Positions 62,356 to 64,000 of a DNA stretch of 64,000 nucleotides are shown here, one piece after another. Source of the stretch: Pandoraea pneumonica (GTDB lineage Bacteria; Pseudomonadota; Gammaproteobacteria; Burkholderiales; Burkholderiaceae). The position numbers and the translations under genes are program-made. Below the pieces are notes generated by a model that saw only the letters and a list, made by a program, of their open reading frames with translations, was not told the origin of the DNA and searched no databases. The first letter of the stretch is position 1. The number at the start of each line of letters is the position of its first letter. The DNA lies in NCBI RefSeq assembly GCF_902459645.1, contig NZ_CABPSK010000003.1, forward strand, positions 124,001 through 188,000. Direction: 5' to 3'.

Positions 62356-63390
62356 ATGGCTTACAACGTTTCCCTCGTGCCGAGCGGGCGCGAGTTCCAG
62401 GTGGAAGACGGCGAGGCATTGCTCTCGGCCGCGCTGCGTCAGGGCATCGGCCTGCCTTACGGCTGCAAGAACGGCGGCTGCGGGTCATGCAAGGCAAAGC
62501 TCGTCGAGGGCACCGTCGAACACGGCGCACACTCGGCCTCGGCGCTCACCAAGGACGAAGAAACGCGCGGCTTCGCGCTACTGTGCTGCGCACACGCCAA
62601 GAGCGATGTGGTCATCGAGAGCCGTGAAGTCAAAGGTATCGGCGACATTCCGGTCAAACGCCTGCCCTGCCGCGTGAACGCGCTCACGCGCCTGGCCGAC
62701 GACGTGATCGTCATGCGCTTGCAACTGCCCGCCAACGAACGCTTCCAGTATCTGGCCGGCCAATACATCGAGTTCATCCTGAAAGACGGCCGCCGACGCA
62801 GCTATTCGATGGCCACCGCGCCGCACGAAGAAGGCTTCATCGATCTGCATCTGCGTCATATGCCCGGCGGCGTGTTCACCGATCACGTCTTCAACACGAT
62901 GAAAGAGCGCGAAATTCTGCGCTTCGAAGGCCCGCTCGGCACGTTCTTCTTGCGTGACGATTCGGAGAAGCCCATCGTGCTGCTCGCCTCGGGCACCGGC
63001 TTCGCGCCGATCAAGGCCATCGTCGAACATGCCGTGCACAAGGGACTGAACCGTCCGATGACGCTTTATTGGGGCGCACGGCAATTGAAGGACATCTACA
63101 TGCGCGATCTGGCCGAGCAATGGGCGCGCGAGATTCCGAATTTCACTTTCGTGCCGGTGCTCTCGGAAGCTGCGCCGGAAGACCAGTGGTCGGGCCGCAC
63201 GGGCTTCGTGCACCGCGCCGTGGTCGAGGATCTGCCGGATCTGTCGGGCTACGAGGTGTACGCGTGCGGTGCGCCAGTGATGGTCGAATCGGCCCGCCGC
63301 GACTTCATTGCGCACCACCAGTTGCCGGAAGACGCGTTCTTCGCCGACGCCTTCACCACCGAGGCCGACGACCCGGGGGCCGCGACCTGA
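62356..63390 (+). CDS. Iron-sulfur flavoprotein reductase (CDP-6-deoxy-delta-3,4-glucoseen reductase-like)
   Basis: This 344-residue electron-transfer protein has an N-terminal plant-type 2Fe-2S ferredoxin domain with C37, C42, C45 and C77 ([10 protein letters not shown], then LLCC). The FAD domain carries RSYSMATAP, and the C-terminal NAD(P) domain has [14 protein letters not shown] and ending motif [11 protein letters not shown]. This is the AscD/MmoC-like layout. In betaproteobacteria such stand-alone copies are often named AscD but lack a dideoxysugar cluster, as here, so the partner oxygenase or acceptor is unknown. The frame extends upstream, but ATG 62356 starts the ferredoxin domain. 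Confidence 0.92.
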
Positions 63391-63473
63391 TCGACGGGGG
63401 AATGCTTCGGACTCGCCGGACATGTCGCCAAGGCGCGACAGATGCAGATGTGAGACAAGTTCACGCATTCCCT
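63391..63473. promoter_or_regulatory. Region upstream of the argD-leader promoter, with dyads
   Basis: TGTCGC (63423-63428) and GCGACA (63435-63440) form a small hairpin after the reductase gene. GTGA-N7-TCAC (63450-63464) lies just upstream of the candidate -35 and could be an activator or repressor site. It does not match the A+T-rich ARG-box pattern. Confidence 0.35.
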
Positions 63474-63503
63474 TTGACAAGCGCCGCATCATCGACTTAT
63501 TCT
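63474..63503 (+). promoter_or_regulatory. Candidate sigma-70 promoter TTGACA-N18-TATTCT
   Basis: A perfect -35 TTGACA lies at 63474-63479 and a fair -10 TATTCT at 63498-63503. Transcription would start about 63510-63511, right at the ATG of a short arginine-rich reading frame, so that frame would be translated from a leaderless message. Confidence 0.6.
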
Positions 63504-63510
63504 TGCCGAC

Positions 63511-63597
63511 ATGAACCTGATTGCCATCGCCTCGATCCGACGTCGCCGTACGCTGCCCCTCCCGGGATGCCGCGCGGCGCGCTATGGACTGCGATAA
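63511..63597 (+). CDS. Candidate arginine-rich leader peptide (28 residues)
   Basis: ATG at 63511 to TAA at 63595-63597 encodes 28 residues. Seven are Arg: residues 10-13 in a row (codons CGA CGT CGC CGT), then 21, 24 and 28. It is followed 23 bases later by an intrinsic terminator and then argD. This order (promoter, short frame with regulatory codons, terminator, biosynthetic gene) is that of ribosome-dependent attenuators such as those of his and leu. No Shine-Dalgarno site is seen; translation may be leaderless. I found no clear antiterminator helix. Confidence 0.45.
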
Positions 63598-63620
63598 CAA
63601 GCGAGTTCTCAAGCACAGCA

Positions 63621-63650
63621 AAGCCACGGGCAAACCCCGTGGCTTTTTTT
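63621..63650 (+). terminator. Intrinsic terminator in the argD leader
   Basis: AAGCCACGGG (63621-63630) and CCCGTGGCTT (63636-63645) pair perfectly around CAAAC, with seven T in a row ending at 63650. It lies 40 bases upstream of the argD start, where it would stop transcripts from the leader promoter unless relieved. Confidence 0.93.
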
Positions 63651-63689
63651 ATTCCTCGTCTCTTTACCTTTCGCCCTTCGGAGACCGTT

Positions 63690-64000
63690 ATGTCGCTTGC
63701 TTCCCAATCTGCCGCCTCGTCATCGTCAACCGCCTCGAGCGCTAAAACTTCCGCCGACGCGAAGTTCGCCGAGTTCGCCACGCACGCCCTGTTGCCGATC
63801 ACGTCGCGCCCGGATCTCGTATTCACCCACGGCAAAGGTGCCTGGCTGTACGACCACGACGGCAAGCGATATCTCGACTTCATCCAAGGCTGGGCCGTCA
63901 ACAGCCTGGGCCACTGCCACCCGGTGATGCGCGACGCGCTCGCCACGCAATCCTCGCAGTTGCTCAACCCGAGCCCGGCGTACTACAACCTGCCGATGAT
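63690..64000 (+). CDS. argD: Acetylornithine aminotransferase-like protein, N-terminal part (cut by window end)
   Basis: The first 103 residues are present. They are a Ser/Ala-rich start, then [19 protein letters not shown] and [19 protein letters not shown], which are characteristic of class III aminotransferases of the acetylornithine/succinylornithine group. The enzyme would use PLP to make N-acetylornithine in arginine synthesis, or act in reverse or on succinylornithine. The PLP lysine lies beyond the edge. A GGAG site precedes the ATG at 63690. Its leader holds a candidate arginine-codon attenuator. Confidence 0.88.

Follow-up and report, generated by a model that had tools for sequence, protein, structure and literature searches.

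A candidate arginine attenuator with a predicted leaderless leader ORF upstream of argD in Pandoraea pneumonica and other Burkholderiales

At the 3′ end of the window, by which we mean the whole 64,000-nucleotide stretch of Pandoraea pneumonica DNA analyzed here, lies a forward-strand gene (63690..64000, continuing beyond the window; contig positions 187690-188955) that raises the question of how its expression is matched to the supply of arginine. Its 422-aa product is the acetylornithine transaminase ArgD, which scores 683.9 bits with NCBIfam NF002985 (cut-off 568), in agreement with the assignment made in an earlier sequence-only reading of this DNA. That reading also started from the premise that arginine genes in proteobacteria are mostly under ArgR control, which fails here. 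Profile searches with PF01316 found no ArgR in the P. pneumonica genome and no match above the cut-off in 120 genomes of the family or in 150 of the order, where there was one sub-threshold match; the same profile was positive in controls, among them the genomes of E. coli and B. subtilis. According to passages of PMC5343134, gammaproteobacteria conserve ArgR and the other classes of proteobacteria lack it. Because ArgR exceeded its cut-off in none of the sampled Burkholderiales, the matching of arginine synthesis to supply in these bacteria needs another explanation. Our results offer a concrete candidate answer for one gene: argD is very probably controlled by a ribosome-mediated transcription attenuator that would read arginine supply through charged tRNA-Arg.

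The anatomy of the region ahead of argD is that of such a device. A sequence scan of the forward strand identified a promoter with the −35 hexamer TTGACA (63474-63479) and the −10 hexamer TATTCT (63498-63503), which are separated by an 18-nt spacer and together match 10 of 12 consensus letters. This is the sole promoter-like site within 62500-64000, where shuffled sequences lead one to expect 0.3. The −10 hexamer lies 7 nt from an ATG at 63511, and transcription is predicted to start at 63510/63511, in line with the earlier proposal of a perfect −35, a fair −10 and a start at or next to the ATG. The ORF that begins there, 28 codons long (63511..63597, +; ORF reading and frame comparison), would then be leaderless. 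The missing Shine-Dalgarno site had been listed as a weak point; its absence stands, and it is explained by a start codon at the predicted 5′ end of the RNA. As described previously, the frame contains four consecutive Arg codons and three more, at codons 10-13, 21, 24 and 28 (7 in total). The RRRR run at codons 10-13 is encoded by the putative control codons CGA CGT CGC CGT (63538..63549). A terminator stem begins 22 nt past the stop codon of the leader ORF and consists of 11 pairs and a 5-nt loop (63620-63630/63636-63646, +), with seven T at 63644-63650, placing a Rho-independent terminator between the leader ORF and the structural gene. The presence of this terminator and its seven T agree with the sequence-only reading, which had given the stem 10 pairs and the distance as 23 nt.

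The upstream neighbour of argD is a ferredoxin-reductase-like gene that ends at 63390 and passes no NCBIfam equivalog cut-off. Among six ORFs tested 3′ of argD, one was nameable (a GNAT acetyltransferase) and none matched an arginine gene. Inspection of the regions upstream of argG, argF and argC in the P. pneumonica genome revealed no such leader. Elsewhere in the same window, a TPP riboswitch (1945-2043, +) scores above the Rfam gathering score.

In the comparison across genomes that the earlier reading had called for, the short frame, its Arg run and the terminator are conserved as a unit ahead of argD, and this holds well outside the genus. A 371-base query matched 31 of 61 related genomes, namely 30 of 32 Pandoraea genomes (our own included) and one genome of another genus (G033). 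The two Pandoraea misses were G003, a 1.2-Mb genome, and G023; a covariance model recovered G023, leaving G003 as the lone miss among the 32. G017 gave a further BLAST match where a NUDIX-like frame begins, and we discarded it as due to chance. Promoter, ATG and terminator align across the 30 Pandoraea loci, and the Arg run reads RRRR in 27 of them and RRRH or RRRS in the other three (L021, L023, L028). The frame is kept in divergent members as well, with the peptides MNCLQTFIRRRRTLLPPGRRAARLGLR in L029 and MNTAIIRRRARTLLPTGVPRG in G033, each read to its stop.

Within the family, a covariance model (R1) matched 268 of 398 genomes at E up to 0.01, with 13 of the 25 genera represented; 268/398 is an upper bound that overstates the family, as weak matches are other terminators. 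argD lies 3′ on the same strand in 39 of 50 model-match loci examined, a set that combines 21 extracted regions with 29 loci from searches, a few overlapping places being counted twice. All examined R1 matches below E 4e-6 have argD downstream, and the 11 without argD have E values of 4.4e-6 to 0.005. At least 120 stretches were matched in a wider scan, and 32 of the 80 listed lie before argD; among the other listed stretches are chance hits in unrelated phyla as well as at least one true locus (L248, Pandoraea) that is cut off before argD.

We parsed 129 leaders with patterns that demanded a −10-like hexamer at a distance of 4-9 nt upstream of the start; in these, the −10 lies 6-9 nt from the ATG, and the best −35-like hexamer is TTGACA in 61, TTTACA in 49, TTGACT in 11 and others in 8. 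The 129 reduce to 115 distinct leaders, of which 113 were used after dropping L088, whose ATG has become ACG, and L097, which has an N in its start codon. The leader peptides are diverse, for example MNRIQSELRRRRSPLP in Paraburkholderia and MNRFLSALRRRRSPLRPDAAGSSRTRA in Burkholderia (both read to the stop), and range from 16 to 31 aa, the mutated L088 aside. Family leaders share a core, GCCGC..GGC, and an apical hairpin, CCC..GGG. In the two dropped loci, from genomes of about 4.2 Mb (L088, G206) and 3.8 Mb (L097, G147), the leader seems decayed or unclear: the ATG reads as ACG in the former, and the latter combines the N at its start with a broken Arg run.

Several features of the 113 leaders argue that the frame itself is under constraint. 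In a search blind to frame, the first CGACGY after the ATG was found 9, 18, 21, 24, 27, 30 or 33 nt away, a multiple of 3 in every leader (113/113); the 9-nt distance, in L120, is due to an additional early Arg pair. The distance from the run to the terminator is 0, 1 or 2 modulo 3 in 49, 27 and 37 leaders, respectively. As far as the last codon of the run, the leader frame is free of stops in all 113 leaders, as against a stop in frame +1 in 103 of 113 and in frame +2 in one. All three codon positions ahead of the run vary alike, and the lack of a third-position bias indicates that conservation does not extend to the peptide itself.

CGA opens the run in all 113 leaders, and it makes up 162 of 621 leader Arg codons versus 5.7% of 1080 in 26 long ORFs of the window, a comparison to be read in light of parsing patterns that favoured CG-type Arg codons. 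CGA, CGU and CGC would be read by one tRNA. Consecutive codons for the end product within a short leader ORF are a property of the family, weakened in several Cupriavidus. In ten leaders of that genus (L116-L119, L121-L123, L126, L168, L171), the run is interrupted (RRSFR, RRSYR); promoter, start and terminator are still kept.

A classical attenuator also requires alternative RNA structures, and the sequence-only reading had seen no clear antiterminator pairing. That judgment is not borne out: by computed pairing, 63569-63578 pairs with 63623-63631, and this pairing beats shuffled controls. In the predicted fold, a 1:2 protector hairpin spanning 63541..63581 (63541-63548/63575-63581, 63551-63556/63569-63574 and 63557-63559/63564-63566, +) includes Arg codons and conceals segment 2, the antiterminator strand predicted with the help of comparison at 63568..63579. 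Segment 3 (63620..63631) would serve both as the 5′ arm of the terminator and as the 3′ strand of the antiterminator, and segment 4 (63636..63650) comprises the terminator 3′ arm and the T run. By computation, the antiterminator is mutually exclusive with both the terminator and the protector hairpin, and this arrangement is conserved. The predicted fold contains in addition a long-range stem, P1, between the start-codon region (63513-63523) and the region after the stop (63598-63608, +); similar long-range stems appear in the predicted folds of L005, L028, L029 and L031, and P1 might gate leaderless initiation.

To represent the ribosome, we masked the RNA to its downstream edge and folded the transcript up to and including the terminator 5′ arm. 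Across the 113 distinct family leaders, the mean computed pairing of the arm with segment 2 was 0.06 with no ribosome; 0.63, 0.79, 0.83 and 0.83 with Arg codon 1, 2, 3 or 4 in the A site; and 0.21 with the stop codon in the A site. The switch score of 13 representatives, which are homologous and so not independent, was 0.605, compared with a mean of 0.078 (sd 0.063, maximum 0.263) for 200 dinucleotide shuffles of each. Individually weak switchers were L095 (0.39 stalled), L098 (0.62 stalled) and L078 (0.46 unmasked), and in leaders of 16 codons the pairing is still about 0.5 with the ribosome at the stop. Measured from where the run begins, the best partner of the terminator 5′ arm lies 28-37 nt downstream in 39 of the 41 leaders tested, 25 nt in L095 and 42 nt in L098. 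Only 5 of these 41 showed arm complementarity at p < 0.05 when each sequence was judged singly against mononucleotide shuffles (p from 0.003 to 0.8), and masked-fold and cross-family tests were needed. Sequential folds run without a control gave no antiterminator in most leaders, in line with the earlier reading. The equilibrium fold of the window's full-length RNA is the terminator even with the stall mask, so that antitermination must be kinetic, as it is in classical attenuators.

Together, anatomy, conservation and the antiterminator support the earlier suggestion of an arginine-codon attenuator, whose specificity fits argD, at the level of leader anatomy. In the model we favour, transcription would begin at the AUG, and a ribosome would initiate at the 5′ end of the RNA with no need of a Shine-Dalgarno site. 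When arginine is ample, the ribosome would clear the Arg codons and cover or pass segment 2, allowing the terminator to form; transcription would then end short of argD and yield a short transcript of about 140 nt. When arginine is scarce, the ribosome would stall on CGA-CGU-CGC-CGU and open the 1:2 hairpin, and the freed segment 2 would pair with the terminator 5′ arm, letting RNA polymerase read into argD. If the leader were not translated at all, 1:2 would form and termination would be the default.

The leader extends beyond the family. Among 300 sampled genomes of the order, 46 carry an argD of this type at E up to 1e-100, and a leader is present before 27 of these 46, in 9 of 11 families, a count for which the leader ORFs outside the family were picked by eye. 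The family of P. pneumonica contributes 5 of 8 with the leader, three members of genus g36 being without it. Outside the family, 22 of 38 argD genes are preceded by an Arg-rich, apparently leaderless ORF and then a terminator. By eye, the leader was seen in all members of some families (f3, 4/4; f24, 4/4; f5, 6/6; f15 and f35, 1/1 each), in part of others (f8, 4/5; f21 and f39, 1/3 each) and in none of f4 (0/8) or f30 (0/3), where L214 of f30, with an Arg-rich frame and no terminator, was counted as negative. The 19 argD genes without a leader are thus the eight of f4, the three of f30, the three of g36 and five others. We also applied a fixed rule (an ATG 5-9 nt past a −10-like hexamer with a −35-like hexamer, followed by 12-45 aa with at least three Arg and at least 12% Arg). 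It scored 15 of 37 order-level argD upstream regions, compared with a mean of 0.55 and a maximum of 4 in shuffles; all 15 are among the 18 chosen by eye, and the other three (L234, L237, L238) fail the rule. The linkage to argD is looser outside the family than within it: of the 12 best out-of-family matches of a second model, R2 (E < 1e-5), six lie before argD and six do not. From position 1501, L185, L187 and L197 each carry another leaderless-looking leader ORF (MNSQSLTLVRVRPVARLHKACRSSFRGRESQR, read to its stop, and relatives) with a terminator; the gene after the L185 leader ORF differs from argD and begins MSLPLAFVSVILIWS. Leaders of this kind are possibly a second attenuator type in Burkholderiales.

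The terminators outside the family differ in sequence (for example, CCGCGC, GGCCGCA, CCACAGG and GGGCCACGG), so that they offer an informative test of the alternative pairing. With a switch score defined as pairing of the arm with anything upstream, mean arm pairing in 22 out-of-family leaders was 0.77 stalled, 0.51 unmasked and 0.36 at the stop; the stall position of L232, whose peptide has no Arg pair, is doubtful in this test. The resulting score was 0.243, versus −0.045 (sd 0.040, maximum 0.069) in 60 shuffles, and 8 of the 22 leaders individually gave p < 0.05 for the stalled state. Exchanging arms among nine families weakened the pairing (p = 0.0045, 29 leaders), with the leader's own arm worse than the average foreign arm in 7 of the 29. 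L225 provides a clear case of pairing, between GUGCGGCC in the leader and GGCCGCAC in the arm.

An RNA homologous to this leader has already been described under another heading. Rfam RF02884, BcKCsr7 (Burkholderia sRNA 7), matches the window full length at 63497-63649 under a relaxed threshold (46.6 bits, E 1.4e-8; gathering score 59), and the model starts within the promoter −10 region. Among 13 other sources from the family, nine match full length at E up to 0.001 and eight reach the gathering score, led by the Burkholderia-type L091 (176.8 bits) and with L067 below gathering; L031, L078, L095 and L098 gave no match. Portions of the review PMC6321483 state that Bc_KC_sr1-7 have been confirmed as expressed in B. 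cenocepacia KC-01, give conditions for sr1-4 only, and mention neither argD nor a leader peptide. The sequence-only reading had offered an independent small RNA of about 140 bases as its alternative; Rfam does hold such an RNA, which supports a short transcript in a relative, and we take it as the terminated argD leader.

It could be argued instead that BcKCsr7 is an independent trans-acting sRNA that merely lies beside argD, its ORF being incidental or the RNA having a dual function. The RF02884 matches and the confirmed expression would fit this explanation, as would the very high nucleotide conservation of the Pandoraea loci, synonymous sites included. A pure sRNA, however, would not explain an in-frame Arg run at varying distances from the ATG, every confident family match examined is upstream of argD, and a scan of the 43 nt that separate the terminator stem from argD found nothing promoter-like. 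We consider an independent sRNA unlikely, although the terminated leader may act in trans as a by-product. An Arg-rich peptide ahead of an arginine gene would also be expected if the signal were not tRNA charging and the nascent peptide itself, from within the exit tunnel, sensed free arginine or ornithine, in the manner of SpeFL or of the arginine attenuator peptide of fungi, and passages of PMC6386406 describe a response of Salmonella orf34/speF to arginine and ornithine. Yet those same passages attribute the arginine effect in Salmonella to Arg codons, neither the sequence nor the length of our leader peptides is conserved outside the Arg run, and five of them gave no Pfam match (E up to 1, the SpeFL/DUF2618 peptide family included) and no NCBIfam match, which makes peptide sensing very unlikely here.

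The conserved core and apical hairpin, together with a folding z of −3.0 for 63509-63655, could also suggest an RNA that binds a ligand or a regulatory protein to control the terminator, with the ORF as a relic. However, the 1:2 and 2:3 pairings themselves require this core, the spacing upstream of it changes by whole codons, and the leader has no match to a riboswitch or T-box family in Rfam, either at gathering or at E up to 1, where BcKCsr7 is joined by weak, sub-gathering hits to Phe_leader, STnc400 and SR1. We regard control by a ligand- or protein-binding RNA as extremely improbable.

The preferred reading, ribosome-mediated attenuation, has implications for arginine regulation in these bacteria. 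It is likely that an attenuator found across much of Burkholderiales stands in for the missing ArgR at argD, with a 5′-terminal AUG that allows immediate initiation by the first ribosome, a rare CGA codon at the head of the run for sensing tRNA-Arg charging, and BcKCsr7 as the terminated product. A possible function is thereby suggested for an orphan Rfam sRNA, and a predicted leaderless start is placed within a classical attenuator layout. A literature search, mostly of open-access sources and largely at listing level, surfaced no description of an attenuator for arginine in these bacteria. Leaderless mRNAs are reported in Burkholderia and Cupriavidus in portions of PMC4603805 and PMC7563307, and a term search of the main text of these two papers and of PMC2965389 did not find argD.

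Finally, the argD leader can be compared with known systems, beginning with RNAs that respond to arginine. The arginine T-boxes named in part of PMC1262725 resemble the proposed device in that an RNA regulates arginine genes in response to tRNA charging. In Salmonella, the speF leader orf34 is similar in that consecutive Arg codons alter RNA folding with arginine supply, but according to the relevant passages of PMC6386406 it encodes a DUF2618 peptide and acts on polyamine synthesis by way of RNase G, Rho and access to the RBS. The argD leader, by contrast, has an intrinsic terminator, precedes an arginine biosynthesis gene and encodes peptides with no Pfam match. BcKCsr7 is a homologous RNA, but is filed as an sRNA. 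T-boxes bind tRNA directly, and the argD leader, having no T-box match, differs from them.

The his, trp, leu and phe attenuators of proteobacteria combine a leader ORF rich in codons for the end product, 1:2, 2:3 and 3:4 pairing and a Rho-independent terminator. The argD leader is like them in its leader ORF, its alternative pairing and its terminator before the structural gene, and differs in having arginine as the amino acid, argD as the controlled gene, antiterminator strands 44 nt apart in the window and a predicted leaderless ORF. For this last feature there is a parallel in mycobacteria, where leaderless poly-Cys short ORFs act as attenuators (Canestrari 2020, as cited in PMC9031893): both systems have a leaderless ORF with contiguous codons for one amino acid, although the mycobacterial one concerns cysteine, and the citing text mentions translation of downstream genes. 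Judged by anatomy and comparison, the argD leader would thus be a classical attenuator with a new specificity and a predicted leaderless leader ORF, distributed over 9 of the 11 sampled Burkholderiales families that carry this argD.
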